A stretch of 64,000 nt of DNA from Diphasiastrum complanatum. Its lineage: Eukaryota > Streptophyta > Lycopodiopsida > Lycopodiales > Lycopodiaceae. Positions within the stretch are counted from its first letter, which is position 1; the number at the start of each line of letters is the position of its first letter. The notes below the pieces were generated by a model, which did no database searches, had not been told where the DNA came from, and worked only from the letters and a program-made list of their open reading frames with translations. Positions 4,706-63,894 of the stretch are shown piece by piece. The translations under genes and the position numbers were made by a program. The stretch is taken from contig CM055107.1 in assembly GCA_029204225.1 (NCBI GenBank), forward strand, positions 23,554,178 to 23,618,177. The letters run 5' to 3'.

Positions 4706-6094
4706 TTACATAACTTGGTCTAAGCCAAGTTTAGCTCTCAAAGTTTCAAACTTTTCTTTACTTAATGCTTTTGTAAATATATCAGCAACTTGTAACAACA
4801 TAGAACAATGTGCAATACCAATGTCTTCAGATTGTAATTTTTCATGCACAAAGTGATATTTTACTTCAATATGTTTTGTCCTTGCGTGAAAGATTGGATT
4901 TTTAGCTAATTGTATTCCGCTTTGACTATCACAGAAAATAATAGTGGGATTTTCCTGCTTCATGCCAATCTCACATAACAACTTACGTAGCCAAATAGCT
5001 TCTTGGGTAGTAGAACTCAATGCTTTATATTCGGCTTCTGTGGAAGAAAGAGAAATAGTATCTTGCTTCTTGCTAGACCATGAAAAATTGAAGGTATAAC
5101 CTGTTGTTGACTTTCTATCATCTATACTTCCAGCCCAATCAACATCAACATAACCTTGCAACTTAGGTAAAACACTTTGTCTTTTGTAGACTAGACCAAG
5201 GTTCGGTGTACCTTTTACATATCTCAAAATCCTTTTTGCAGCTTTCCAATGGTTCAAAGTGGGTGATGACATGAATTGGCTAATCAAACTTACAACATAG
5301 CATATATCAGGACGTGTAGTTGTAAGATATATTAAACTTCCAACTAGCTGACGAAATAGTGTAGTATCAACATGTGCACTATTATCAATACGAGATAATT
5401 TCTTACCAACTTCGCAAGGGGTGATGGAAGGTTTGCACTCTGTCATGTGAAATCTCTCCAATATCTCGCCTACATACTTGTTTTGACATAACCTGATATC
5501 ACTGCTAGTTTGCCATACTTCGACACCCAAGCAATAGGGCATAAGATCTAAATCTGTCATCTCAAATTGCTTGCACAAGTTAGCTTTGACAGAACGAGTA
5601 AGGTTCTCATCATTGCCAGTGATAATGATATCATCAACGTAAAGTACAATCAAGGCAATGTTGTCATCATTTATAAGAACATAAAGATTTGGATCTGAAT
5701 TTGTTCTTACAAATCCATGTGAAAGAAAGTAATTGTCAATGCGTCCATACCATGCGTGTGCTGCTTGTTTAAGGCCATAAAGTGCTTTGCGTAGTTTACA
5801 TACTTTCTGTTCTTGCCCTTTTGCCATGAAGCCCTGTGGTTGGACCATGTAAACTTCTTCTTCTAAGTCACCATTCAAAAAAGAAGACTTCACATCCATT
5901 TGATGGATTTTCCACCCAAAATGAGATGCTAAGGCAATGATAAGGCGTAGCATAGTCCACTTAGCCACTGGAGCAAATGTTTCTTCATAGTCAATTCCTT
6001 TGCTTTGCTCATAACCCTTCACTACTAGGCGTGCCTTATGCTTTGCTATTGTGCCATCGGCATGAAACTTTGTTCTAAACTCCCAATGTATCAT
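4706..6094 (-). pseudogene. Copia reverse transcriptase and RNase H
   Basis: A 462-codon open frame covers the RT palm and RNase H of the Copia polyprotein. Visible marks are DVKSSFLNGDLEEEVYM, the LYGLKQA motif, the YVDDIIITG catalytic loop, RTKHIEVKYHFVHE and the terminal ADIFTKAL. RNase H shows SSTEAEYKAL and FCDSQSGIQLA. This is the best preserved part of the element. Its first residues lie within RT, so the true start is upstream in another frame: a frameshift separates it from the integrase part at 6442-6708. Confidence 0.9.
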
Positions 6095-6441
6095 GTCTTT
6101 GGATGGATTCTATCTCTTCTTCCATTGCCCTTTGCCACTCTTTGTGATCTTTTGCCTCATCAAAGGTTGATGGCTCTCGACACTTCAAAATGTCAGTCAT
6201 AAGGGCATAGTTCACATGATAACGATCGCTTTGTGTGCTAGATTTTGCTTTGCGTCCTTCATGATCTTTTCATACCATTTTGGTATTTAGATTCAGGTGA
6301 TACACTACGTGGAGAGTACGTATCCCAAGGAGTGTCCAAGTAATGTCTCTTACTTCCAACCGGTTTCTCCTTCATTGCTCCTATTGGCAAGTATGTCCCC
6401 TTAGGCTCTTGAATAGGTGGTGTTCTTTCATATTCGCCCTC

Positions 6442-6708
6442 TCAACTTTCGTCCTCACGTGCATCATTTTGTGGAGCATCTTCATCATTTTCTTCCTCCA
6501 GAATTGTGGAAAGTCTCTTGATGCTTTCACCTTTTGCATGGTCTTCATCTTCATACCTATGCGTTTCATCAAAGATCACATCTTTGCTAATGTGAATTTT
6601 GTTCATTACAGGATCAAAACACTTGTAAGCTTTTGTTCTTTCATCATAACCGATGAAGATACACTTGATTGCTTTGGCATCAAGTTTCTTTCGCTCCTCC
6701 TTTGGCAC
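6442..6708 (-). pseudogene. Copia integrase C-terminal part and linker
   Basis: This piece carries the end of integrase (KLDAKAIKCIFIGYDERTKA; PVMNKIHISKDVIFDE), a segment common to Copia integrases after the core, then an acidic linker. A frameshift separates it from the core at 6754-8247. It continues the same minus-strand element. Confidence 0.8.
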
Positions 6709-6753
6709 ATGTACATAGGCCTTACATCCAATGACACGAAATTTGTCGATTTT

Positions 6754-8247
6754 TTACTTTATTCTAGTAAATGCTTCTTCAGGAGTCACATTTGGAACCG
6801 CAACTGTAGGGCTTTTGTTTTGCAAGAACGTTGCTGCACTGCACGCTTCCGACCAAAGTGAATCGGTCAAGCCCATTTGCTTCATCATGGAGCGTGCACT
6901 CTCCATAATAGTTCTGTTTTTCCGTTCAGCTACACCATTACTATGCGGCGTGTGTGATTGTGTGAATTGTCTTTTAATGCCATGTTCTTTGCAAAAGTCT
7001 TCAAAATCATCAGATTTATATTCACCCCCTCTATCAGATCTTAGCACTTTTATGCGTGCCTCTAGTTGGTTCTCTACCAAAGTTTTGAATTCCTTGAAGC
7101 GAGCAAAAGCGTCATATTTCTTCTTCAAGAAATAAATCCATGTCCTTCTCGAGTAATCATCTATGAAAGTCATAAAATAATTTGCTTTCCCCAACGACAT
7201 GGTCTTCATTGGACCGCACAAGTCGCTGTGAATTAGTTCCAGCGGTTTCTTAGCTCTTGCAGCTCCACCTTTCTTGAATGTCTCTCTGTGATGCTTTCCC
7301 ATGATGCATCCTTCACATATTGCATGGTGATCATCCTGCAATGCTGGTAACCCTATTACCATCTTCAGCTTCGCCATCAATCTCAAGCTCCCATAGTTCA
7401 AATGACCAAGTCTTCTGTGCCATAACTCAAATTGAGATGCTGTTGAGATGGCCAAACCATATTCACCTGGTTTTGCAGCATCCAATTTATAAAGGCCACA
7501 GTTACTATCTCTATAACCCTTTGCCACCACTTTGTGGTTATGGTTCGTATCCTTCATAAGGCATCCATCCTTGACAAATTCAACTTTAAGATGTTGATTT
7601 GCCATTACACCAACAAAAAGCAAACTCTTTTTGAGTCCAAGAACATAAAGTACATTAGGGATATTTTTAATTTTGCCATCAAGAAATTGCACAGGTACAT
7701 TGCCCACACCCTTTATCTGGCATTCCTCTCCATTGGCTTGAGTGACCTTATTCCCATCATGGATTGGTGAGAATTTTTCAAACCAATCACGTTTTTCGGT
7801 CATATGCCTTGTGGCGCCTGAATCTATGAACCATCTGGCACCATCATCAACTTGGGATGCCAATGCCGATGAGAAAACACTTGTCTCGTCATCTTCTCCA
7901 TCATCTTTGGCAATGTTTCCTTGTTGAGTCACTTTTCCCACCTTTATCTCTGCTTTCTTCTTATAACACTCGCGTGTCCAATGGCCTGGTTTGTGACAAT
8001 AGTAACATATTTCTTTCTTCTTCTTTTTCCCTTTTGAAGACGATTCTCCTTCGTCATCATCATCCTTGGATTTCTTAGGAATCCTTTTCCATCCTTTCTG
8101 CTTGCCTTTAGCAAGCAAGGCTTGATCCTCCTGTGGAGTTTGTCTTGACTTCACCACTTCGCGACGCTGCTCTTCTTGCAACATGATTCCGTGGAAGTCT
8201 TCAAAAGTAGGCAACCTCTCCCTCGAAGCAATGCTGCTCACAAACAT
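6754..8247 (-). pseudogene. Copia gag zinc knuckle, protease and integrase core
   Basis: In order, the 497-codon frame encodes the end of gag (RERLPTFEDFHGIM), a CCHC knuckle (CYYCHKPGHWTREC), a retropepsin motif (WFIDSGATRHMT), the GAG-pre-integrase segment (LWHRRLGHLNYGSL) with HHCC-type residues, and the integrase core with FIDDYSRRTWIYF, VLRSDRGGEY and GVAERKNRT supplying the DDE triad. The first part of gag lies upstream at 8548-8736 in another frame. The fusion of gag and pol in one frame is usual for Copia. Confidence 0.9.
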
Positions 8248-15599: not shown

Positions 15600-15684
15600 A
15601 ATTAGAGAAAATATCGGCCTGAAGAGGGCCTTTCTAAAAAATGATTTTTTATTTATTTTTCATTTGTGTTGCCATGTGGACCAT
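15600..15684 (+). repeat. Terminal-inverted-repeat-like sequence, left orientation
   Basis: Starts ATTAGAGAAAATATCGGCC, passes through GAGGGCCTTTC, a T-rich run and GTTGCCATGTGGACC. The reverse complement of 30620-30722 follows the same order (TTAGAGAAA, GAGGGCATTT, T run, GTTGCCATGTGGACCA). The inverted-repeat elements at 45855 and 47760 share it more loosely. At 15682 a second start of the same kind (CATTAGGGGATATTAGAAC) begins, so two ends abut or nest here. Confidence 0.6.
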
Positions 15685-22630: not shown

Positions 22631-22894
22631 TGGCATCATAGCTATAAATCTACAAAGATGAAAACTTGTCTGGATGGAAGTGAGATGCTCAAGGAGGAGA
22701 TCCAAAGGTTGAAATCTTCTTTGCATCATTATAGAACTAATAATGATGAGATAAAAATTGCATTTCAATCCATGCATATCTCAGTCTCTTCTTAAAGATA
22801 TGGATGTGCTCAACAGAAAGGTCCGAAGCAACAAGAGGAAAAGACTGGTAAACAAGGATATATGTGATCTATCATCCAGATAAATAATAACAAA

Positions 22895-24730
22895 ATGAAA
22901 AAGATTAAGGCTTCAGTTATGGATAGCATTATGGATGAAGTTGGAAAAATATTAGACACTACATCATTGCTTCAGGGGGCATGTGACTTTTCTAGCATCA
23001 GTAGGGAAGCATCTGCAATAATGTTTAAGATGATAAAGGAGGCATTTGCACAGGTAAATATTAAAAAGTTTCCATTTTCGCGACCATAAATCAGTGGTAA
23101 TCCATTTAATATAGTTGCATATGGTAATCCATCTCATATCAATGAAGTGTATTGCTCGGAAGGAGAAAGTCTAGCTTATAACAATTCCAACAATTTATTT
23201 ATTGACATTCATCTGTTATTAACATTCATCATAAATTTTTACAGTATTACAAATGAGAATGTCAATAACAAGTTGATAGTTGTTCTCAAGTTAGATGAGT
23301 CTGAAATTATAAAAGGACAAAAAATGGAAAGAGTCAGTCTCACGATCATGAATGGAGCACTTTCAAATTCAAAAAACTCAGAAGGCCTCAATTTCAGTGT
23401 TCAATCAGAAAATGATATATGCTGGTTGGCAGCATTTCAAGTATAGCAGTTCCTTCGCATAATAAATAGGGATAATCATTTCAATATGGATTTCATATCT
23501 AAAATCTTCTCTGTGTTAATATTATGAGGCTAATCATGTTTTTGTATTCTCTTATAGGTGCTGAAAGAAGACCATAACATTCTCTCATGGATATTTAATA
23601 GAACATCATATCCTGCCACCATAAAAAATCACATGGAGGGAGTTCCACTCAATATTCCTAGAATTGGCACTTTCAACATTGAATGGCATTTAGCAGGAGA
23701 TCCGAAGACATTAAAATGTATGTTCAATGTATCTCTGGCGCTAACTCTAAACACCCTTGTTTGTACTGCATGAAAACAGATAGAAGACATAACAAGGAGT
23801 AAAGGAATATCAAGAGATCGAGAAGATCCTAATTGAAAACCTGTACTACCGATTCCTCTACGAAATGTTTATATTTGTACATTGCATACGGAGGTGCGTA
23901 TTATAGAAAAATAATATATCTTCACATCTTGTTTGCATGGAATTCCGAATCAGAGGCCTCTGCGAAGGAAGCTATTTTCATATTAAAGGATGTGTTGTCC
24001 AAAGCAGGCTTACATAAAGGCCACGTTAAAATAAAAAAAGATGAGAAGTTATCAGGTAAAACAAGAAATATTCCATGCAAGTCGAGCAATGGAGGATCTA
24101 AAGCTCGAAGATTTTTATCAAATTATTCTGGTAAACAGTCTAAGGTTCAATACACGGTTTGGAAATAAATTATCGCAGCAACTCAAGATTTCGAAGAAGA
24201 AGGTTCTACTCGTTTACACAAAGTAGAAGTTTGGAAAAAGTTAGACAACATGGTGAAATACTTGAGAAAAGATAAATATTCAAATACTGATGTACAAATG
24301 ATACAGAAAACAACCAATGAATTTGTGGATGCAGTTCAAATGGCATGGGGTGTTGATCATGTAACACATTATATGGTAAGATTTTGATTTTACACTACGA
24401 TAGACAAATACGTGCAATTAAATTAGATACTGATTTAGATTATGTTTTTATGATATGCAGCACATATTACGACATCATTCGACATTCTTTGCAAAAAATA
24501 GTGGAAGTATTAGCATATGGTCATTGCAAGGAATGGAAAAATCTCATTGGCAAGCAAGAGCGGCATTTCATAAAAGTACACAACATGGCGGGACTAGCAC
24601 AAAAAATAGCTATATACTGCAACTTTTCGAATGGTTTTATAGAAGAATCCAAATTCGTCATAATACAAAATCGATGGATTATAAAAAACTTCAAAAAGCA
24701 TGCAAATTTATACAAGTCAGTAGGCTATAG
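22895..24730 (+). pseudogene. Gene T: transposase-like protein (KDZ/Zisupton-like suspected)
   Basis: At least four exons: to 23053, 23245-23440, 23558-24375 and 24461-24730, at GT-AG borders. Coding may begin earlier, near 22660. Key segments are LKLDESEIIKGQKMERVSL (candidate first Asp), IEWHLAGDPKTLKCMF (second Asp in the GD-K motif), CLYCMKTD (a CxxC pair in a shifted frame), PVLPIPL then CTLHTEVRIIEKI, and SIWSLQGMEKSHWQARAAF (candidate catalytic Glu in QGxExSH). This order of D, GD-K, CxxC and QGxExSH resembles RNase-H-fold transposases of the KDZ type, by my recollection of that family. A frameshift near 23735 and stops near 23783, 23835 and 24167 show it is inactive. It converges on gene B. 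Confidence 0.55.
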
Positions 24731-24790
24731 ACACACAATAAAATTTTGTATATTAAATAAAAATATTTACAAAGTACAATTCAGCAGTAT

Positions 24791-26308
24791 CTAATCTGCT
24801 TCCGATATTTTTTTCAATGAAAGTTGCAACTTAGAATCATGCAACAATTTTCTTCTTTCATATGGATCCAATAGCTCATAGTTTTCATGCTTACTTGGAT
24901 CAACGTAAGCAGCATACACTGCAAAATGAGATGATCTGAGCATGGAATTTACTGGTCCATATCCTAAAATTTTAACCGCAGTAGTTTTTTTTACAAAAAT
25001 TATTTCATGCACCTTATTGAAATTATGTCCTCCAAGAAAATGAAACAATGTCTTGATTGCCATAATCATAGTTTCACCATGTTGATGAAACTTTGAATGG
25101 GCCACACTTATCTCATTATTCTTGAAGGACTTCAGATAGTGTCCCAGTGCATGATCTCTTGAAAATTCTCCAGCAGAAGATCTCTGCCCTCCTCAATGAA
25201 TTGCAAAATCATCAAGAAAAATTGTTTTCTGAAATGATAAAAAACAAAGTAAGCTCCAATATATAAACTGACATAACCAATCTACTAGTAATTGATAAGA
25301 TACAAAAACTTACGCATTCAGCTTTGTCTTCACTGATTACTGTCTCTCCATCAATATTATGTCCACCTTTCAATGTCAACATTGTTGGTGAAAAGACAGT
25401 TGGCTGTGGAAAACCAAGTTGACTTTGGATTCTAAGAAACTCCTCCTCAGAAGGTAGATCATCTTCTTTGTTGCACATTTCCTCCACAACCATTTTCAAG
25501 CAATCTTTCCTTGAATAAAACTTATCATTATGTACATCGTCAACACCAGGGAGAAGAATCAGCATCAAAATCAATTACATCCGAAAATTCATCTAGCTCT
25601 TTGCTCAAAATGCAAAGAGTCTCAGCTTCAGTGAAGTCAAAAACATCCGATATATTTGATATTGTCAAAAAGGAATTATTATCTATATTATAAGTAGGCA
25701 AAGTGATCAAAGATTTATCAGAAGGAGAAAGGGTAGTGGGGGTTCTAGGGCCTATAAACGTAGCCCTATTTCGAGCAGGATCAAAATCAGAACAATCATC
25801 TAAACTAACACTTGTATCAATAAAAAAAAGTATCTATATCTACAATCTTTGACTTTTCAGACTTTGTACCACTAGAAGAAGCTGCTTCAAAAGTGGAGGG
25901 AACAACCTCCGAATTGTTAGAAATATTTAACAAAAGAAAAAAAACAAAAGCGGATTGAAAATCAACAAATCTACATTTCTTATTATGAGTTGGCCACTCA
26001 TCTACAGACTTGAAATCATTATGTAACTTGGTAAACATTCTGTCAAGCTTAGCTTTATAGATATGCTTGTCGAGCGCCACCAGAACCTGATAATGAATCA
26101 TGTCCTTATTCTGAAATCTGAATAAGGGAGTACTGAGCAGGGACTCATATCTGAGATATATCTCAGAAAATGCCTCCACACCAGGGCCCTCAGTTATAGA
26201 AGGTAGAATAAAAAGAAAAGAAGAAATAAGAGATCTGAAGTACTCCAACCTATCAGTAATACCAAATTCATGAAAAAAAAAAAGCAAACTAGATTCAAAA
26301 TTAGACAT
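24791..26308 (-). pseudogene. Gene B: unknown protein, partner of gene A
   Basis: Two exons: 26308-25314 and 25228-24791, with a GTAAGT donor and a TTTCAG acceptor. An upstream ATG at 26389 is possible, but 26308 (MSNFESSLLFFFHEFGITD) leaves the repeated promoter motifs outside the coding region. The N-terminal half is helical (SLLSTPLFRFQNKD; ALDKHIYKAKLDRMFTKLH). A Ser-rich middle shifts frame near 25830 and again near 25560, and exon 2 contains one TGA. Exon 2 ends with AAYVDPSKHENYELLDPYER, related to AYLHNELNIHDLNPNDRRK in C'. It is not recognised as any known family. It is divergent from A across 0.9 kb and tail-to-tail with T, 60 bp apart. Confidence 0.45.
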
Positions 26309-26340
26309 ATTAAACAAAAACAATAGAACTAATGTTTTAA

Positions 26341-27115
26341 ATATCGCTCTCAAGCGCAAAACCCAGATCAGACAAGCACGACAAGGCAACGTGCACTCGA
26401 GAGAGATATTTTAAGTTGGAGTATCGGATCCGAGCGCAAGAACAAAGAGCAAAAAAGAAAAGAGATGCGAAGCGCGCTTGAATGTGATATCGGATGATGC
26501 AGTATCGGATCCAAGCGCAAAATAGTCAACGAATGGGTAATGAGAGCAAGCGGCGTGCTTGAAATCGATGTCCAGCAAAGCAATCGTAAATTTGCGTGAA
26601 AATTCGAGCCGAAGAAGACCTATTTATTAAAAAAAATTTGCACGTGTGGATTAGCGACGAGAACACGTGTCGACTTGTGATTGGTCAAAATAAATGCGCC
26701 GTACCTAGAATGATTGATCTGACATCTGTCACGTGTGAGAATAACACGCGTCGAGAGCGCATTCGCGCACGTGTCTCAGCCCACGTGGCCTAATAATAGG
26801 GTCATCATTGTCAGTACGGACAATCCACGTCGGCTAATAATCTATCCTCGCCGTCTTTTCACACGTGCAGAAATTTCATATATATAAGTCCTTGAAAATT
26901 TCATTTTTTTTTGCAAAATTTTTGCTTTTAGCTCCCAATATCGCTCTCAAGCGTGCTCTTTCACCGTTCTAGCTTTTGTCCTCTCACAGTGTCCTCGAGT
27001 CCGATACCGCTGAAATTCCAATATCGCTTTCGAGCGCGCATCTCGTTTCATAGAATAATCTCTATAGATCTTGAGCTCGAAACCGATATTCAGTTCTGGT
27101 ATCGATCTCTAGCGC
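26341..27115. promoter_or_regulatory. Divergent promoter of B and A with G-box cluster and phased motifs
   Basis: Six CACGTG boxes lie at 26641, 26664, 26730, 26768, 26782 and 26862. Around them a 17-bp motif, consensus RTATCGNNYYCNAGCGC, occurs in plus orientation at 26341, 26421, 26502, 26938, 27021 and 27099, that is two groups of three spaced 78-83 bp apart. Inverted relatives lie near 26472 and 26550. A TATA-like sequence (26879-26887) suits transcription of A. CACGTG is the known core of bZIP and bHLH sites in plants; the 17-bp motif is not one I recognise. Confidence 0.6.
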
Positions 27116-27197
27116 CCTTTCATCGCAAATTTTTTTGGTTTCATCCACTTTTCTTTTGTTCAAATTTTTTTTTGTTTATTTTCTTCCTCTGAGTATA

Positions 27198-29288
27198 ATG
27201 GCCATGACCAAATCCACTACTCGTGCCATAACCACTGTACAGCCATCCCATTCACGTGTTCCCCCTGGTACTAGTCGTAGGCATGGCAGAAAACAGGTCT
27301 GGCTGAGGGAGATCAGAAAACTCCAGAGATCAACTGAATTGTTAATCCCTAGAGCTCCTTTCGGCCGATCTGTACAGAATGTCACTCTATCACTTGGGCT
27401 GGATGTTCGTTTTGCCGTGACAACCATGCAGGCCTTGCAAGGTGTTGCAGAAGATTTTTTGTCCCAGTTTTTTGAGGATTTGTGCATGGTAAGCGTGTCA
27501 CCATCATGCCAAAGGATTTCATCATTCTCAAAAGGCTTCAGGACATATATTCTGGTCTGCATGTTGATAATGCCAGCACCTCTAGAGACCTACCTGTAGA
27601 TAGAACCGATTTGCCTACTACCTCTAGGAAGAAGAGAAAGCAGCCTGTCCCCAAGAAGGCTAGATCTTGAAGGCCAGCTGCTTCTCTTCCTCCTAGAGTT
27701 ATCTCGACCAAGAGACCACGTGTCTTCCTGAGCTATGAATCAGATGCTGGAGAATCTGACTCAGATCGAGAATCTTCACCCCTTCCTCCTCTTGTTATTC
27801 GTCCAGCTCCTCAGCAGGTTTCATCACCAAAAGTGTTGATTATCCAAGAAGGGCTAGACAAAATAACAGAAAAATTTGTAAATGTTGTTTCCACTTCTGT
27901 TTCTACTCCTGTACATAATCTTTTTGTGAGAATTTCATATGATCCAGCCCAGGTTTTTTCTTAATCTGACCATTATAATCAATATGAGGCCTACCTAGCT
28001 AACGAAATTGATCTTCTCGGCAACTTTTTTGATTTTTTTGTTCCAGATACACGTAGAAGCTTTAGATTAGGTCCCAAATTTTGTGCCGAGCTAAAAGATA
28101 AGACCTCAAAAATTTCAGATGCAATAGTAGAGGCCGAAGTTTCTTTTTTGCAAAATAGTATTAGTTTCGATTCTCATGGTGCAATTTTTGTAGTTAGTCC
28201 ATTTTTCATGGGAGCGGTAAAAGCGAAAGAAGCCAATTTTGAGAAGGCTATCTATTCTATCGAGTGCAATACTATGGCGAAATTCTATTTGATTCCATAT
28301 GAAAATAAGTAAGGATTGCTCTTTTGTTTTTGTTGCTTTAATTTGGATTGTTGCATGCCTCATTGCTTTAATAAGAACAAATTTTTTTCATAAACATGAA
28401 TTTATCGATCTTTGTATCTTGGTTGTTGCAGTCGGCATTGGAGCATAAACATTCTTTTTGTAAAGATAAATAAGGAGGGAGTATCAAATTTTCTGTGTAA
28501 AATTAAACTTAGCTGCAAATACACATAGACAATTTGATTCTCTACTTCATGATGCCGTTCGGGAAATACCGACAACGACAACTTCAATTGGAGATATAAC
28601 CATTAAATCTCTCAAGGTATATTCAATTTATCTCTTGTATACATGTATTTCTTTTTTAATTCAAATGTATCATCATAGCATAAATAAAATCTCTATAATA
28701 ATATTACTAATTTTTGTTCTATATATGCAGTGTGTACAACAAAATGACGCTTTTAGTTGTGCATGGTTTGTCCTGTACATTTCGAAGCTATTTTTTGAAT
28801 GGCTAATTTACAAACGGATATGTTTATTGAAAAGGTGATATTCTATTCATTTGTAGTTCATTTCATTCTGATTCATATTTTATTACTATCAGTGTTTGTA
28901 ATTTGCTAATTCTCGTGTTTTGTGATGATAGTTCACTCTTGAGCCGTATACTCCTAATGATGTATATAGATTTCGGCAAGAGTTGATCAGAACCATTGCC
29001 CAGTACGGAGTAAGCATTGCACCTACAATTGAGGGCCCTCAAAAAGAAGATGATCCTGTCTTAACAGCCTTTCAGGTTGTTCAGGATGCAGATTTTGTCT
29101 TATATGATAAAAAATGAATAAAAGTCCTTCGTAATACAGAGAAAGGCAATTTTGTAGCAGATATTCCTCTTGTCTTAAAAGGCATTGAGGCCCTTCCCGA
29201 AATAGAGGAGGACGAGATTATTATAGGAGTTGTTGCCTTATCAGTTGCTAATATTGATATAGAAAATATAGAAAAATTGATTGAATAG
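27198..29288 (+). pseudogene. Gene A: histone H3-like domain joined to Ulp1/C48 protease
   Basis: Begins MAMTKSTTRAITT, then LREIRKLQRSTELLI, FGRSV, MQALQGVAEDFL and, after a 7-base loss near 27485, KRVTIMPKDF: all helices of the H3 histone fold. Loop 1 has ordinary H3 length. The same frame continues through KKRKQPVPKKAR and an acidic Ser-rich linker, with stops at 27668 and near 27961, into a protease domain. Exon 1 ends at 28308. Exon 2 (28432-28616) has RHWSINILFVKI (His at 28436) and, after a frameshift, FDSLLHDAV (Asp at 28536). Exon 3 (28731-28834) has QQNDAFSCAWFVLY (Cys at 28758). Together these give the His-Asp-Gln-Cys set of SUMO/ubiquitin-type proteases. An in-frame TGA follows exon 3; open sequence at 28932-29288 may be a tail exon or lie downstream. 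Confidence 0.7.
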
Positions 29289-29488
29289 AGATCTATTTGT
29301 AAATAGAGAGACATAAAAAAAAAAAGGATACAATCATTTTACTTGTAAAGAACCCGTTTATGGGTTTTTTTTATTGATATCACAATAGATTCTTACAATC
29401 AGCTTGTGTCCATAGTCTAATACTGGAATGCAATTTTTCTATAATGATAAAAAGACATGATGATTGGCATGTATTTATTGATAGTGAC
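29289..29488. other. Convergent gap between A and C
   Basis: AT-rich. It includes AACCCGTTTATGGGTT (29350-29365), a short inverted repeat followed by a T run, perhaps a 3-prime processing region shared by the two convergent genes. Confidence 0.3.
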
Positions 29489-30266
29489 TCAATGTTTTTT
29501 CATAAGTTGGATTGTTTCACCAATATCTTTGCATTTGATCTCGAGCTCATGTCTTTTACGTACCTGCATAAAACTAATACAAAGTTAGTTAGAATTAGTA
29601 CAAAGTTTGTATTAGAAAGTTTTGATTGAAACTATTCGTAAAAGATCGAGTGTTTACAGTTACTTACGAGTTTACCATTGAAAATAAATATGAAGTCTGA
29701 AAGTACATCATCTTGTAGGAGCAATAGTTCCCACTGGCTTCCAAGTCTTGATCGAGTGGCAACCATTTACCTTTATTTTTTTTTCATCTTTGATAATGGA
29801 AGCATAAGCTCAACATTTGTTTTTCAATTTGATAACGGAAGCACATAAAAGACATTTTAATTCTACATTCTATTTCTCCATCTGATCTTTTGTCACAGCC
29901 TTCATCCATAAGTTCAGATAATAAACTATCTGATAAATTTTTGCATACAAACATCATTGGGGTTTTGTGTGCATTGACACTTAAAAAGAAATCCACAAAT
30001 ATATTCAAGGAAATAAACCAACTCAATCTGACTGTTTTTTATCTCGTGCTCATTTTTATTGAATTTTTTATATCATTATATATCTTGCAATGAAATGATT
30101 CTAAAACTGTAGCATCTGGTGCAATCCAATCATCACCCCAAGAGTTTTTTGAATATTTTCTTGGCACCCATAATCCATTATCATCTGTCTCGTTGAATAG
30201 AAGCACATAGTCGATTGAGGAGCACGGCTTCCTTGATGGCGCCATTCGTAATTTGCATGCAAAAAT
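29489..30266 (-). pseudogene. Gene C: partial homologue of C' with suspected ubiquitin-like end
   Basis: Convergent with A, about 200 bp apart. The upstream exon (from 30266) holds SSIDYVLLFNETDDNGLWVP. The next has MMFVCKNLSDSLLSELMDEG and CFRYQIEKQMLSL. A third ends FIFIFNGKL at a GTAAGT donor (29667-29662), and the last exon (29563-29489) reads VRKRHELEIKCKDIGETIQL. These align with C' segment by segment, including the intron before the last exon. A deletion removes most of the putative first beta strands and helix present in C'. The N-terminal half found in C' is absent, because the terminal repeat at 30.6-30.7 kb lies close behind. A dead gene of unknown function. Confidence 0.5.
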
Positions 30267-30619
30267 CTGAAACAATGAACTATGAATCTAAAAATTTGTG
30301 TAGAGAAAAAGCCATGAATCTGAAAAAAAATATTGGCGAAAATTTGAAACATTGATCTATTTGGCGCCACAAATTAGCTCTGGTTATCCCTGTTAATTAT
30401 GGTTTGACAATGCATATACATTAATGGTACATCATTTTTCTCACCTCAACCATCTGTCATATTCATTTTCAATATTTTTGGGTCTCTTCGGACAGTGATG
30501 AGCTGGAAGGGCAAGCCTCATCAACCAATAGCATTTCCACATGTTGCCCGACGAAATAACAATACATTTAAAAAGTTTTTATTTTATTTATATTTGGAAA
30601 ATTCTACGTTACATAGAAC

Positions 30620-30722
30620 CCCAAAGCTAAAGTTTCAATTGGTCCACATGGCAACGAAAATAAAAAAAATAAAAAAAACGTCTTTTTCAAATGCCCTCGT
30701 TGGGCTCTAAGTTTCTCTAATG
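30620..30722 (-). repeat. Terminal-inverted-repeat-like sequence, right orientation
   Basis: Ends GGGCTCTAAGTTTCTCTAATG. Its reverse complement matches 15600-15684 and, more loosely, the ends at 45855 and 47760, including the GTGGACCAATTGAAAC and TGTAACGTAGA segments shared with the 45.9 kb element. It marks a right end close to genes A and C. Confidence 0.65.
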
Positions 30723-34249: not shown

Positions 34250-35202
34250 CACACTTTTGCATTCTATTGGTGAGCACATATGTGATGTGGAGCTGGTGCA
34301 CAATGCATTGTGTGGCATTACAGAACCCTATCAGATGTTTGTGAGCAGAATAGCATCAAGAGAAAGATTACCAACTTTGACGAGCTCATAGGAATCTTGA
34401 TGCAGAAGGAGCAATGACAAGAAATAGTGAAAGCTAGACATCAAAATACTGACGATCAGGCACTTGCGACATGCCAAAAACAAGGCAAGGTCAAGGGCAA
34501 GAAGAATTCAAAACAACAATTTGCCAAGACTTAGGAGGATGAGGGATCTTCCAGTAAGACCAAGAAGAAAGACAAGTGCTTCCATTGCAGTAAAAAGGCC
34601 ATTGGAAGAGTGAATGTCGAAAATTCCTAGTGGAACAAGGCAAGGGGAAACCAAAGCAAGCAGGTAACCTTGTCGATGAGGGTGAGATTGAAGACTCTGG
34701 CATCTTCATATCAGCATTGTCATCTAATCAAGATGATCAAGCATGGTATATTGACTCGGGAGCCACAAGGCACATGACAAGTAAAAAGGATTGGTTCAGT
34801 AGTTTTAAAGTGTTGGATAATGGAACGTCCATTTCACAAGCAAATGGTGATGTGTGCAAGATCAAGGAGATAGGCACCATTTCAATCCAACTACCTAATG
34901 GAAAAAGCAAGATGATCAGGGAGGTACTTTACGTACCACTTTCTGTTGGAGTCATTACTAATCAAAAGTTGAAATTAGAATTTGCCCATGATCGTTGCTT
35001 TGTGAAGGACGTGAACCAAAAGTTCAAAGTTATTGCGGATGGAATAAGGGAGCCCAATACTAAATTGTACAAGTTGAATGCTACAATCAAGGGGCAACAT
35101 GGACTTGTCTCGTCCATTCCATCGCAAACTGAATTGTGGCATAAGAGGCTTGGTCACTTGAACTTAGGAAATTGGAAATGGTACCATGATTGCCTACGAT
35201 AG
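34250..35202 (+). pseudogene. Copia gag end, zinc knuckle and protease
   Basis: The gag tail reads RIASRERLPTFDELIGILMQ with a stop soon after. The zinc knuckle (CFHCSKK, near 34579) is broken by a one-base loss in the GHW segment. Protease follows as WYIDSGATRHMTSKKDWF (about 34747), and the frame ends in the pre-integrase motif LWHKRLGHLNLG. It overlaps the next frame by 13 bases. Confidence 0.85.
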
Positions 35203-36440
35203 AAGACCACTTGAAATTGATGTGCAAATTATGTGTGTATGGGAAGCAGCATCAAGAGAAGTTCAACAAAGGTGGTGTTGCAAGGGCAAAGAACATTTTG
35301 GATTTGATCCACACAGATTTATGCGGGCCTATGAGGACCATGTCCTTAGGTAAAGCCTTCTATTTCATGACCTTTATTGCTAATATGTCACGTAAGATGT
35401 GGATTTACTTCTTGAAGAAGAAATTGGATGCATTTAACAATTTCAAGAGCTTCAAAGCATTGGTCGAAAATCAGACAGGTAGAAAGATCAAAGTTTTAAG
35501 ATCAGATAGTGGAGGTGAGTACAAGTCTAATGACTTCAAAGATCTTTGTGATCAATGTGGGATCAAAAGACAATTTATGCAAGCTCATACTCCTGCACTC
35601 AATGGTGTAGTTGAGCGCAAGAATCGTACGATTGTGGAAAGTGCCAGATCTATGCTAGCTGAGATGAAACTACGAAAAGATTTTTGGTCAGAAGCATGCA
35701 GTACGGCACTCTATCTTCAAAATAGAAGTTCTACCATTGCCATACCAAAGATAACACCTGAGGAGGCATTCACGAAGAAAAAGCCAAAGGTAAACCACTT
35801 GCGAATCTTTGGATGTAAGGCCTATGTATACATTTCTAAGGAAGAGAGACGTAAATTTGATGTGAAAGCTATCAAGTGTATATTCCTAGGATATGATGAT
35901 CGTGTGAAGGGCTATAGATGTTTTGATCCAGTGGAAAACATAATCCATGTAAGCTGTGATGTCATCTTTGATGAATCCAAGATGTATGAAGATGAGGATG
36001 CTGAGACGATAGAAACATCTAGTGGAAAAGATGGTATAGTGAGAATACCTCTTGATGATGATCCATTTATTGACTTTCCAAGTGATGGACATGAGGATAC
36101 ATCTCAAGATACTACTACTCAACCTCAAGAAACAGGTTCAGAGGTAGAGATAAACCTTTTAATGCAAGAACGATTGAAGTTGCAGGTGACAAACGCAAGG
36201 AGAAAGATGTACCGTAGAATACATTTTCACCAAGAAGCCGATAACCTAACAGGAAACTCCCTAAGTGGTTTGAAAGATTGTTGGAGAGCCGCGACATGGA
36301 TGACTTTCCAGGATCATCTAGCCAGGGAGAGCTACGAAGATCAACAAGAGAGAAGACACAACCTGAATGGTATGAAACAAATTATGCTCTCTTATCCAGC
36401 ATCATTCAACGCAAAGAACCTTCGACTTATGGTGAAGTGA
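35190..36440 (+). pseudogene. Copia integrase
   Basis: A long open frame holds the zinc region remnant (CKLCVYGKQHQ), DLIHTDLCGPMRTMSLGK, VLRSDSGGEYKSNDF and NGVVERKNRTIVESARSM, which supply the integrase catalytic residues, then CIFLGYDDRVKGYRCFD and the acidic linker. The usual FIDDYSR reads FIANMSRK, so one catalytic-region Asp is altered. Another frame takes over near 36278. Confidence 0.85.
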
Positions 36441-37085
36441 AGGATGATGACATTTGGGTCAAGGCCATGAGAGAGGAGATGGAGTCAATTGCTAAGCATA
36501 GCACATGGGACTTAGTGAAACCACCAGTTGGTAAGAAACCCATTGGATGCAAATGGGTATACAAGACTAAGTACCATGCAGATGGAAGTATAGCAAAGCA
36601 CAAGGTAGGATTGGTGATCAAAGGGTATACACAAAGTAAAGGCATCAACTATGAGGAGACCTTTGCGACACGAAGTGGGTTTAACACAAGTTAAGTATGT
36701 CAAAGAGTTGCTGCACAGGTTCAAGTTTCAGGATTGCAAACCAGTGAATACTCCTATTGAACCAGGTAAAAAGCTTTCTAAGCTTGATGAGTCACAGCCA
36801 TTTGATGTTACATTGTATAGGCAGTTAGTAGGGAGCTTGATTTACCTTACCACGACTAGACCAGATATATGCTATGTTGTTGGTATTGTAAGTCAGTTAA
36901 TGGCAGCACCTACAGAAATGCATTGGAAGGTAGCTAAGCACATTTGGTGTTATATCAAAGGCACTTCAGATTATGGCTTGATTTACAAGAAGCATGAGGG
37001 TTTACCTGAGTTGTGTGGGTATGTGGATGCAGATTGGGGAGGTGACTATGATGATCGTAGATCCACCACAGGGTATGTATTCTAG
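36278..37085 (+). pseudogene. Copia RT start joined to RNase H, RT core deleted
   Basis: The first frame ends in GINYEETFA, just before the RT palm. The next picks up at VKYVKELLHRFKF and LIYLTTTRPDICYV, which lie after the YVDD loop in intact relatives. About 0.6 kb including the RT catalytic site is missing. RNase H follows with YVDADWGGDYDDRRSTTGY and decays through stops from 37083 to 37440, ending near the purine tract. Confidence 0.85.
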
Positions 37086-45854: not shown

Positions 45855-46630
45855 CATTAGAGAAAATTTGAACACAAAAGGGGCCTTTCAAAAAGATACT
45901 TTTTATTTTTTTTCTCAAAAGTTTCTTCCACATGGTCCAATTAAAACACTCAAATTTGAAATCTACATAACGTAGCTCCTTCAAATTGATTTTCTTTTCT
46001 TTTTAAAAGAACTGTAATTTTGCATTGGGGGCAGCTTGTAAATAAGCCATTTTATTTGTAGTATAGTATGCAACTCAGCAAAAAAAAAAAAAAAAATAGT
46101 GTAACTTTTGAACGACAACTCGGATTGAGACAATTACAGTGCCATTAGAAAGCCCATGACGAGAGCTTTTCAACGACATCCAACATGACCTAGTTTTGAG
46201 ATACGGTGAAGAAGTTATGGCCAGTCAAAGTTTTGGCCGGCCAACATTGGTCAACATTGGTCAAAACTTTGATGGGTCATACAGGTCAACTGCGCTTGAA
46301 AGAGATATCGGGTTGACCAATGTTGACCGGCCAAAACTTTGACTGGCCATAACATCTCCACAATATCTCGGAACTGGGTCATGTTGGGTGTCGTTGAGGG
46401 CTTTCTAATGGCACCGTATTCGTCTCAATCCGAGGTGTCATTCAAAAGTTATGCTTTTTTTTTTTCAGCCACAAACTATACTATGCACATAGTGGCTAAC
46501 CATTGAAGATTGTGTGGGCAGAACTGCGGGCAAAAAAAGATTTTATTTTAGTATTTTACATTGCCAAAAAATTGTCATCCTACGTGGAAATCTTTATAGG
46601 GCCCTTTCCAAGGCCAAATTTTCTCTAATG
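45855..46630. mobile_element. Inverted-repeat element (776 bp) with internal hairpin
   Basis: Ends CATTAGAGAAAATTTGRMC and its reverse complement, with AAGGGGCC/AAGGGCCC subterminal matches. It sits inside Copia coding sequence. A long internal hairpin occupies 46060-46490. No transposase gene, so non-autonomous. Its ends resemble those near genes A and C (30722) and at 15600. Confidence 0.8.
46060..46490. repeat. Long internal hairpin, arms of about 200 bp
   Basis: Segments such as GTTATGGCCAGTCAAAGTTT, TTGGCCGGYCAACATTGGTC, CTCGGATTGAGAC and TGCCATTAGAAAGCCC in the left half recur as reverse complements in the right half, in mirrored order. Confidence 0.85.
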
Positions 46631-59936: not shown

Positions 59937-61516
59937 CTAGCTTGGTTCAATCATTGCTTTACTAATCACTCCAAGTGATGATCTGAACTTCATAAAAGGT
60001 GTCTTTTGAAGTGGTTTAGTAAGTAGATCAGCTACACATTCATTGCTTGGAAACATGCTCCAAAGCAATCTCCTTGGCTTGCACCATTTCTCTCACAAAG
60101 TGATGGCATATCTCAATGTGCTTAGATCTTGCATGGAAGATTGGGTTAGATGCAAGGTGTTGGGCTGATATATTGTCATTGTAGATGATTGGTGCCTCCT
60201 CTGAATCCATGATCTTTAGCTCCACCAACAATCTCTTGATCCAAAGTACCTCCTTTGTAGTGGTTGTCAAAGCTTTGTACTCGGCCTCGGTTGAAGATAG
60301 AGATATAGTTTCTTGCTTTTTTGAAAGCCATGAAACCACACCTTCTCCTATGAAAGTTGAATAGGCACTTGTTGATTTCCTATCCCTCTTATCCCCTGCA
60401 AAATCTGAATCACTAAATGCATGAAGGTTAATCACATCTCCTCTATATAGAATCCCAAAATCCAATGTACCCGAGATGTATCTTAGAATCTTCTTAGCCT
60501 TTTTCCAATGGATATTCAATGGCTTTTGCATGGATTGGCTCAACCTACATACACTAAAGCTAAGATCTGGTCTAGTTATAGTGATCCACATTAAGGAACC
60601 TATAAGTTGCCTAAACAAAGTGATGTCCATGAAGGATCTTTCATCATCTTCATTTGGCACTTTTACATCTTGCTCCATTGGTGTGTCAACACTTTTGCAT
60701 ACTTCCATCTTAAACTTCTTCAAAAGACTTTGAGCATAGTTTACTTGACTTATAGAGATAAAAGATGACCCTCTAAGTACTTCTATCCCTAAGATTAAGT
60801 GAAGACACCCTAGATCTACCATCTTGAACTCTAAGGATAGATCTATCTTGATTTTTTCAATACCATCAACACTATTTCCACTAATGATGATGTCATCTAC
60901 ATAAATGAGTAAAAGTACAATACCAACATCATCAAACTTAATGTAAAGAGTGGGATCATATTCACTTTGAACAAAAGAAAGTGAAATAAGATAGCAATGT
61001 AGTCTTGAATTCCAAGATCTCGAGGCTTGCTTCAAGCCATAGATGCTTCTTTGGAGATGACATACTTTGTTCTCCATTCCATGCTTGATGAACCCTTGTG
61101 GCTGCTCCATATAGATATCCTCTTTCAAAAAACCATTCAAGAAAGCATTAGAGACATCCATTTGACATAGAATTCATCCAAAATGTGATGCAAGTGCAAT
61201 TGACCATCTTGGCCACGGGTGCAAAAGTTTCCTCATAGTCTATCCCTCTCTCTTGAGCATAACCTTTTGCAACTAATCTTGTTTTATGTTTGTTAACACT
61301 CCCATTTGCATTTAACTTAAAAGCTTGAAGACCCACTTGCATCCTATTACATTCCTTTGAGGTCTCTCAACAAGCAACCAAGTTTCATTCTCAATCAAGG
61401 CATCATACTCATCCAACATAGCTTTATACCATTCTTTGGAGTTCAATGCATCTTCAACATTAGATGGTTCTTCAAAACTAGATAAAGCATAAGAAGTGGA
61501 TGAGATACCCTCAACT
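59937..61516 (-). pseudogene. Copia reverse transcriptase and RNase H
   Basis: After the TAG the frame continues ([30 protein letters not shown]), then shifts near 61195 with a Trp-to-stop change near 61170. From 61161 it is open: [42 protein letters not shown] and RNase H with SFSDSDFAGDKRDRKSTSAY-like text and SSTEAEYKALTTTTKEVLW. A stop at 60040 cuts the last 35 codons, which resume in another frame as ECVADLLTKPLQ. Only about four lesions are seen. Confidence 0.9.
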
Positions 61517-61518
61517 TG

Positions 61519-63894
61519 CTATCCTTTGCCTTGATATGTGAGCCTTGATGGCTCCACTTTTGCCCTTGAAGATCTCCTTGGTGTGATAGGTGGGTTTGGT
61601 GCTTGCTCCTCCATGAGCTCCTCCTCAAAACCAAGATCTTGCTCCTCGACCATCTTCTTCTTGATTGTTGGAGCACTTGAGCCTTCTTCAAGCATATGCA
61701 TGTGATGTTTATCAAAGATGACATCCCTTGAAACAACAAATTTGTTCAAGGATGGGAGATAGACTTTGTAGCCCTTGCTTGAGCTTGCATATCCAAGCAT
61801 GATCCCTCTTGTGGAAGATGGATCCTCCTTGGTTCTTGTTTCCAATGGCACATGCACATAACATATACACCCAAAAACTTTCAAGTGATTAAGATTGGGT
61901 TTCTTTCCATACAACATCTCATAAGGAGTTTTGCCTTCAATTGCTTTGCAAGACACCCTATTCATCAAGTAGTTTGCACATGCAAGACACTCACCCCAAA
62001 AGGATTTGGGCAAACAAGCATCTAATCTTAAAGCCTTAGAACATTCACATAATGTTCTATTCCTTCTTTCAGCAACTCCATTTTGTTGAGGAGTGTAAGG
62101 ACAAGAAGTCTCTTTCTTGATCCCTTCCTCCTCACAAAAGGCCTTGAACTCATTGGAGATGAATTCTCCACCATTGTCACTTCTAAGAATCTTGATGCTA
62201 TGATTATGATGCTTTTCCACAAACAACTTGAACTTTACAAAAGTATCAAATACTTGAGACTTGAAGGAAAGTAAGAACACCCAACAATATCTTGAGTAGT
62301 CATCAATGAAGGTTAAAGACATGGATGAACCTCCATTAGATTTGGTGCTAGCAATGTGCACATCCGAGTGTATGAGTTCAAGAGGATGAGATGACTTTGT
62401 GATGGAGTTAGGAAACACCTTCTTATGTGCCTTGGATAAGGCACAAGCTTCACAAACCTTGTCTTCCTTCCCAATAGACCTTGGCAGGCCTAAAGCATAC
62501 TCCTCCTTGATCATAGCCTCCATGGAACCCGAGTTGACATGTCCAAGTCTTTTGTGCCATAAAATAAAGGTAGATATCTTGCTCTTCTCGGCCAACATGA
62601 CAACATTAGTATCCACAAATGCATCCAACTTATAAAGTTTGCCAAGTCTAGTGTCTTTAGCCACTACCTTACCCTTCTTCTTGATGAAACATTCATTTGA
62701 AGCAAAGTCAACATTGAAACCATTGTCTACCATTTGGCCAACACTTAGTAGATTCTTTGTTATTGTAGGAATGTACAAAACACCTTCTATGTTGATCTTT
62801 TTGGAAGATCCTAAGCAAAGGGGAATGCTACCAACTCCTTCAATCTTACAAGCTTCATCATTTGCTGTATAGATAGACTTTATAGGTCCATCATAAGATA
62901 AGAGAGAAGAAAAAAATTCTCTTTTACTAGTCATGTGTGAACTAGCACCCGAGTCAATCCACCAAGGATCTTCTCCTTTGAAGCTTGTTGAAGACAATAT
63001 GGACATCATGAGAGAGTCCTCATGTGAACTCTCCTCCTCCTCCTCTTTGCTCATGTTGGCTTGGCTTTGATCTTTCTTCCTCTTGAAGCATTCCGAGGCA
63101 TAATGCCCCATCTTGCTACAATAGTAGCACTTCACCTTTGATTTGTCCTTCTTGACTTTGGTGGTTGATGGAGATGCCTTTGAGGGTCCTTCTTGATCCT
63201 CAAGCTTTGTAGACTTCTTGAATGTTGATCCTTTGCCTTTGGACTTGCCTTTGCCTTTGGTGAAGAGAGCTTGGTCATCTCCACCTTGGATGGAAAGCCT
63301 ATCCATCCTCTCTTGCATTTGGCTCCTTCTTGATTCCTCGGCCATGAGTGTGCCTTGGAGTTCTTCAAGTATGGGTAGCTTACCCATAATTGCATATCCC
63401 TGAACCAAATTGTCAAATTCAAAGCTTAGTCCATTCAATATGAGTTGAACAAGCTCTTCATCCTTGATAGGATCACCTATAAAGGCTAGCTCTTTGTTCA
63501 ATTCCTTTACTCTTAGGACAAAAGTATGTGCACTCTCTCCTTTCTTTTGATAGCTTCTATAGACTTGATTCTTCAAAGCTAACATTCTAGTTTGGTTCTT
63601 GGATTCATAGACCTTTTGCAAAGTCTCCCAAGCATCTTGAGCTGAAGTGCAATCTCCTACCTCTCTTAAGAGTTCATTTGCTACATTCATTTTTATGCAA
63701 TGTACTACAACATTGCACCTCTTGATGTATTTGGCTTTTTCTTGAGGATGAATAGGTTCACCCTCCTTACCATTTACAATTTCCATCAGATCTTGCATGA
63801 TCATGATGGATTCCATTCTAACTTTCCATATGGAATAGTTAGTTTTGTTGAGCCTTTCATTAGTATCCAAAAGATATGCATTTATAGATGCCAT
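61519..63894 (-). pseudogene. Copia gag, protease and integrase (791 codons open)
   Basis: In order: gag (MASINAYLLDTNERLNKTNY; DAWETLQKVYESK), a Lys-rich segment, a zinc knuckle CYYCSKMGHYASEC, protease WWIDSGASSHMTSKREFF, pre-integrase LWHKRLGHVNSGSM, and integrase with FIDDYSRYCWVF, ILRSDNGGEF and NGVAERRNRT forming DDE. It ends in the acidic linker and PRRSSRAKVEPSRL. A single TAG (about 61519) interrupts what would be a continuous polyprotein into RT. The intact catalytic residues suggest recent activity. Confidence 0.92.

Follow-up and report, generated by a model that had tools for sequence, protein, structure and literature searches.

In the literature covered here, Ulp1 domains recur in unrelated DNA transposons of plants, those of the VANDAL type with their KIU genes and those of the CACTA type. 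According to the excerpted text of PMC5735166, VANC proteins lift silencing and bind short motifs that are repeated in the non-coding DNA of the elements encoding them. Ulp1 is carried by some VANC genes, and its precise function in VANDAL-type elements is called unknown in the portion of a 2026 review that we draw on (PMC13317346). Among CACTA elements, Ulp1/Peptidase_C48 domains are described for Cactavine families, rice and Chenopodium in the passages used (PMC2528002, PMC8978399). An H3-like sequence has likewise been amplified by a DNA transposon, the hAT of Pseudocercospora fijiensis and its relatives; there, however, the H3 is RIP-inactivated, the transposase is of the hAT kind, the target duplication is 8 bp long, and no protease is mentioned in the excerpt (PMC6710886).

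Here we describe an element from Diphasiastrum complanatum, found in a window of 64,000 nucleotides (the whole stretch of DNA that was analysed, to which all coordinates refer). Like the KIU/VANC system of the VANDAL Mutator-like elements in Arabidopsis and other eudicots, it has a Ulp1-like domain in a gene that is putatively accessory and a short motif repeated in its own non-coding DNA. It differs in that this gene, which we call gene C, contains H3, whereas the word "histone" is absent from the excerpted text of PMC13317346. VANDAL elements are classed in the same excerpt as non-TIR MULEs, while the present element has terminal inverted repeats and a relative of its transposase with a predicted RAG1 fold. 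Finally, VANC21 motifs lie in one orientation in the part of PMC5735166 covered, in contrast to those of the present element, which switch from strand to strand and recur about every 80 bp.

Gene C joins H3 to a C48-like domain

The sequence-only reading held that an H3 fold and a C48 protease stand together in one gene of a mobile element and that the copy in the window is dead; both claims are borne out. Gene C lies on the forward strand in four exons. Exon 1 encodes the H3 part (27198..27559), a basic and acidic linker (27560..27898, approximate limits from a codon alignment) and the N-terminal half of the C48-like domain (27899..28308, start approximate). The domain is carried on into exon 2 (28432..28616), with the catalytic His at 28436 and an Asn at 28506 near the usual Asp, and exon 3 (28731..28834), with Gln at 28737-28742 and Cys at 28758; exon 4 (28932..29288) adds a C-terminal tail and ends in a TAG stop at 29286-29288. 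Among 15 aligned rows, which include two near-duplicate pairs and one copy (c4) whose homology ends after exon 2, intron 1 has a GT donor in 15 and an AG acceptor in 14. The corresponding counts are 13 and 9 of 15 for intron 2, with AA in place of the acceptor in five rows, and 11 and 9 of 15 for intron 3, while the TAG stop is found in 8 of 15.

In the window, an ATG at 27198 opens the H3-like frame, and its first 98 residues (27198-27491) match the histone profile PF00125 at E 1.1e-14 and 55.2 bits, against a cut-off of 26.4; exon 1 of copy c4 reaches 8.2e-21 and 75 bits. Relative to copy L044, 13 bp are deleted from the H3 part of the window copy, and therefore the end of the fold (KRVTIMPKDF) stands in another frame, just as had been read from the letters. 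Stops at 27668 and 27962 interrupt the frame downstream.

The junction of the two parts recurs across the host genome (1.74 Gb searched). A query of 98 H3 residues gave 150 scored matches, with 5,671 first-look candidates, at 79-100% identity including the window itself; a query of 118 residues from the C48 part gave 150 scored matches of 4,527 candidates at 86-95%. We selected ten copies by their C48 part, taking by eye the first eleven C48 matches without a partner in the H3 listing, passing over one apparent duplicate and fetching 0.9 kb upstream of each. H3 precedes the C48 part in eight of these ten, covering 363-375 of 375 bases in seven and 202 in one, and the other two break off before H3 is reached. 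The sequence-only reading had allowed that other copies might always lack H3, which is contradicted by these eight. All eight carry stops or frame-breaking indels somewhere in the compared stretch.

Copies c3, c10, L044 and L045 have an uninterrupted exon 1 of 369-376 codons, which begins with H3 and reaches halfway into the C48-like domain. These are 4 of 25 copies ranked by similarity to the H3 of the window (L041-L046 having been picked for long open frames), and three are independent, c10 being a near-duplicate of c3. Reading through in one exon means that neither chance insertion nor splicing accounts for the junction. The notion that an H3 retrocopy happened to land in one transposon copy is hardly credible; it is refuted because many copies, differing from one another by about 6-11%, share this junction, and we rejected it. 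We are highly confident that exon 1 encodes, in a single frame, a divergent but complete H3 fold, a linker and the first half of a C48-like domain; gene C normally exists as this fusion. A fully intact gene C was not found among the copies read to the end (the window copy, c2, L044, L045 and L046).

Within the length and word limits of a search of 5.8 billion proteins, a set outside which plants lacking protein predictions fall, exons 1-3 gave 24 matches, all to histone-domain proteins and none with C48 listed, and none of 490 candidates matched the C48 part at E 0.01. Gene A of the same element (see below) has relatives there that are up to 72% identical, and the lack of such relatives for gene C suggests that the fusion may be confined to a lineage. 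H3 joined to C48 was likewise not found in open-licence PMC papers, among the matches listed.

The two parts of the fused protein

That the fold is that of H3 is certain from its sequence. All 60 PDB relatives listed, of 173, are H3-type chains by name, CENP-A included. A consensus of 125 codons from 30 copies shares 62 of 123 residues with canonical plant H3 and retains the ARTK start, LREIRK, STELLI, the RF of loop 1, FEDT and GKRVTIMPKD. The equivalents of H113, R116, D123 and R129 are also kept; the position of R63 holds Pro. Beginning ARTKSTAR, the tail falls about 13 residues short of that of canonical H3. K4 is present in 27 of 30 copies, and Ala takes the place of K9 in 28 of 30; gaps of the tail alignment, which is uncertain, cover the K27 and K36 stretches. 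In this alignment of the 30-copy consensus, the tail is thus not a canonical one with K9, K27 and K36. A further H3-like match of this family is located about 15 kb ahead of the window (C16:23538769-23539059).

The C48 label for the second domain is probable and, by profile, borderline. The spliced sequence of L044, with one X, scores 20.1 bits against Peptidase_C48 (PF02902), for which the cut-off is 20.7; the sequence of c2 with its lesions bridged reaches 21.2 bits, a value we do not rely on. In alignment A3, four of five rows match PF02902 at E up to 1 (best 0.006), these rows having masked positions that stem from the choice of columns; P0039 and P0056 were left out of alignment A2. The sole PDB sequence match of the bridged c2 is yeast Ulp1, a weak one at E 0.81, and alignment A3 gave no match in the PDB sequence search or in the accompanying NCBIfam search.

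Of the protease residues named in the sequence-only reading, His, Gln and Cys stand where it placed them. The His codon CAT at 28436, within an HW pair, is kept in 15 of 15 rows, the two Gln codons at 28737-28742 in 14 and 13 of 15, and the Cys codon TGT at 28758 in 14 of 15. The Asp it named, at 28536, is kept in all 13 rows with data and lies downstream of the catalytic Asp in an alignment with Ulp1; it is probably not a triad residue. The catalytic position seems instead to hold an Asn, at 28506, which is found in 13 of 13 rows with data.

The element, its transposase and its motif array

The gene belongs to a plant DNA transposon family of hundreds of copies, of which the window holds a broken copy on the forward strand (22646..30722) that lacks its left part. 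In a blastn comparison with ten copies, each taken with 10 kb of flank on either side, homology with c2, c4, c7 and c8 begins at 22646, and 30722 is the right-hand limit shared by c2, c3, c5, c7, c8 and c10; c1, c7 and c9 are rearranged. The right terminal inverted repeat (30702..30722, forward strand) has the reverse complement CATTAGAGAAACTTAGAGCCC, and the left end in c7 and c8 reads CATTAGAGAAAATATGGGCCC. Element ends begin CATTAGAGAA, starting with CATTAG. Copy c8 measures 10.7 kb from end to end. The last 20 bases of the right end occur exactly 719 times in the genome and a 20-mer of the left end 843 times, whereas the reversed control of each occurs 0 times.

These 719 right ends do not represent 719 insertions, as a segmental amplification shows. 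Of the 55 right ends listed for contig C1, 22 lie within about 1.8 Mb (48.43-50.24 Mb), 19 of them in one orientation, and 19 of the 20 that were fetched (of 22) share an identical 60-bp flank; the cluster is therefore a single insertion amplified with its segment, which lies near the middle of the chromosome with irregular spacing. Pericentromeric targeting, considered from this cluster, was dropped on the same grounds. The same lesions recur within the pairs c3/c10, c9/L018, c4/L010 and L001/L002, on chromosome-sized and small contigs, and such pairs look as if they came from unmerged haplotypes or segmental duplication; L002 is 99% like the window copy.

Several other features of the window touch on the element or its surroundings. 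At 15600, 7 kb before the homology begins, 43 bp are 84% like the left end of the element and may represent a relative or a left end moved from its place. A MITE at 45855..46630 (strand not assigned) is a short non-autonomous relative, with similar ends, one motif site (2 mismatches) and TGT at both flanks. Retrotransposon frames at 2-1971, 4706-8247, 34594-37085 and 60040-63894 were named Gypsy- or Copia-like by eye from their translations.

Gene A is represented in the window by a broken remnant on the forward strand (22646..24790, limits approximate), whose ORFs resemble pieces of the gene. It has 34 relatives in the protein collection, and a search of viral contigs found none. One relative was modelled, and Foldseek places its predicted structure with RAG1/Transib, as an RNase H transposase fold of the RAG1 type; by the fold of this model, gene A is a RAG1-fold transposase. 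The RAG1/Transib rows show 15% identity or less at Foldseek TM-scores of only 0.32-0.45. When the alignment of gene A was run against PDB sequences, one weak coiled-coil match was returned, and no Pfam match of the gene A pieces from the element itself reaches the cut-off. Transib and RAG systems make a 5-bp target duplication and have CAC-type ends. In the present element the ends start CATTAG and a 5-bp duplication was found in 0 of 12 paired ends, so that it also differs from RAG1, ProtoRAG and Transib in these respects.

To obtain the 12 pairs (L057-L080), left and right ends were paired by eye among the first 100 places listed for each; they were chosen by ends alone, irrespective of gene C content. 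None has a target-site duplication of at least 3 bp and one has a 2-bp match; the flanks of copy c7 also match over 2 bp. The missing duplication of 3 bp or more is unusual for a RAG1-fold transposase. A symmetric target pattern, CTNT/ANAG, suggested by 14 flank pairs, was dropped when it proved absent from 40 further flanks, which show no more than a weak preference for T at -1 (p 0.023).

CACTA/EnSpm elements have CACTA ends and a target duplication of 2-3 bp. Membership in this group was our first guess, from the TGT flanks of the MITE and the C48 domain, and it was rejected for the lack of 3-bp duplications in the 12 paired ends and of Transposase_21 (PF02992), which has no match at E <=0.1 in the 32 of 34 gene A relatives scanned; the TGT flanks of the MITE and the 2-bp match of c7 point the other way. 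The element is further set apart from CACTA by ends that begin CATTAGAGAA rather than CACTA and by its H3 part. The same 32 relatives gave no Pfam match to a Mutator-type transposase at E <=0.1.

Gene B, also broken, lies on the reverse strand (24791..26308, far limit approximate), divergent from gene C and starting at 26308; its ORFs are shared with other copies, and none of its pieces reaches the curated cut-off of a Pfam family. The stretch at its start is duplicated in c2, c5 and c8, about 600 bp apart. Between genes B and C lies an array of the motif TATCGNNNNCRAGCGC on alternating strands (26342..27115), which is also present in the 1.4 kb before gene C of copies c2-c6 and c8. In the window alone, the first form of the motif has 7 matches against 0.16 expected. 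Counted in a 16-bp form, TATCG(N)4CNAGCGC with at most one mismatch, it has 90 sites in 11 stretches (near-duplicates c3 and c10 included) within the 4.5 kb that precede H3, and 5 in all in the other 15.5 kb per stretch, every one of them in the rearranged copy c1; copy c7 has none. With at most two mismatches and c10 excluded, the step from a plus to a minus site is 51 or 52 bp in 48 of 89 cases and that from minus to plus is 27 to 31 bp in 36 of 89. Of the 65 same-strand distances between 60 and 100 bp, 64 measure 78 to 83 bp, a period of about 80 bp. This geometry suggests a putative dimeric binder. About 80 bp is also close to one superhelical turn of nucleosomal DNA.

Tests for selection and possible roles of the fused gene

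Signs of selection on gene C depend on how copies are chosen. Among 22 copies picked by H3, dN/dS is 0.53 for the H3 part, against 0.70 and 0.93 in shifted frames, and 1.10 for the linker; for the C48 part of exon 1 it is 0.69, against 0.56 and 0.75, with no sign of constraint. The H3 value is biased because the copies were picked by H3 similarity, and we do not rely on it. In eight C48-picked copies the H3 value is 0.68 +- 0.09, not distinct from 0.75 and 0.82 in shifted frames, and the purifying selection first read from H3 dN/dS left no clear signal in this second set. Indistinct ratios are expected if most changes postdate insertion. In H3, amino-acid changes make up a smaller share of the variants common to at least three copies than of the singletons. 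Without CpG sites, the counts are 31:27 for shared variants and 81:31 for singletons (normalised N/S 0.56 against 1.26, Fisher p 0.017), and with CpG sites they are 44:30 and 85:32 (0.68 against 1.23, p 0.08), p values being uncorrected for six comparisons. The C48 part shows no such signal (27:8 against 68:23). Near-duplicates c10, L010 and L018 were dropped from the dN/dS and variant counts, and L052 and L054, which have no H3, from the H3 counts.

We also simulated neutral evolution from canonical H3, with indels ignored and with tests chosen after the sequence had been seen. Over the fold region, 326 of 3,000 runs stay free of stops, 124 of 3,000 keep at least 11 identical residues in a run, and 3 of 3,000 do both and also reach the observed substitution score; a simulation over 123 codons leaves 93 of 2,000 runs stop-free. 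Conservative replacement in the fold is not above neutral, the observed score being reached in 1,126 of 3,000 runs. Together, these observations give modest support for a past function of the H3 part.

Our best explanation overall is that the fused H3-C48-like gene C of this DNA transposon supplies an anti-silencing accessory protein, a reading we hold tentatively and rate just short of an even chance. Taken by itself, the role of the product as an accessory, anti-silencing chromatin protein is possible and rather doubtful; we infer it from the missing K9, K27 and K36 and by analogy. In this proposal the H3 part would pair with H4 and so bring the fused protease into or onto nucleosomes, possible targets that the sequence-only reading had already raised. 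A nucleosome without K9 and the K27 and K36 stretches could not take the usual silencing marks, while K4 would stay available. The protease would strip SUMO or a similar tag from nearby silencing factors or histones. The motif array, bound by an element protein (B or C), may help to keep this action local, and movement itself would be carried out by the RAG1-fold transposase of gene A. A more elaborate version, in which the transposon makes its own nucleosome component, an unmarkable H3 with a deSUMOylase, positioned by the 80-bp period of the motif so that the element's own chromatin resists silencing, is improbable.

Alternatively, H3 could be a captured passenger beside or inside a Ulp1-like gene, the fusion spreading by hitch-hiking without any function. 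Plant DNA transposons do capture gene pieces, according to the excerpt of PMC13317346, and a fungal hAT captured H3 and spread to hundreds of copies that were inactivated by RIP, as described in the excerpt of PMC6710886. The indistinct dN/dS of the C48-picked copies fits this account. It is harder to reconcile with a consensus frame that is open even though H3 has diverged by about 50% from the canonical sequence, with the scarcity of neutral runs that match the observed combination (3/3,000), and with the depletion of amino-acid changes among shared H3 variants, and we consider it somewhat unlikely.

Two further accounts give the H3 part a role in placement. It might steer transposition, the protein or a transposase complex being tethered to nucleosomes and so directing insertion; the histone fold and several kept DNA-contact residues would suit this. 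H3 is fused, however, to a protease-like domain and not to the transposase, the CTNT/ANAG pattern was not repeated, and the one dense cluster goes back to a single insertion that was amplified, all of which make steering quite improbable. That H3 might aim the protein or the element at centromeres, as a mimic derived from CENH3, had been raised in the sequence-only reading and is very unlikely. Among the PDB matches, human CENP-A ranks first by a narrow margin (1.4e-20, the best H3.3 entry having 6.3e-20), and LLIP, AED and KDF match CENH3 of Arabidopsis. CENH3 and CENP-A have a longer loop 1 and a diverged tail, and neither was found in the consensus: its loop 1 has the length of canonical H3 and lacks two residues relative to CENP-A and CENH3, and its N-terminus is ARTKSTAR. 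Identity, moreover, is 62/123 with canonical H3 against 52/112 with the CENP-A stretch and 45/96 with the CENH3 stretch, and the C1 cluster, being one amplified insertion, speaks against the same idea.

Returning to the anti-silencing accessory protein, the tie between a domain of the Ulp1 kind and H3 points to chromatin as its site of action. By the fold of the modelled relative, the element would add a family of plant RAG1-fold transposases without a match in the Pfam copy used. Such a mobile element would moreover encode a histone variant of its own, and the fusion of H3 to a protease may let it act on the very chromatin that silences it.
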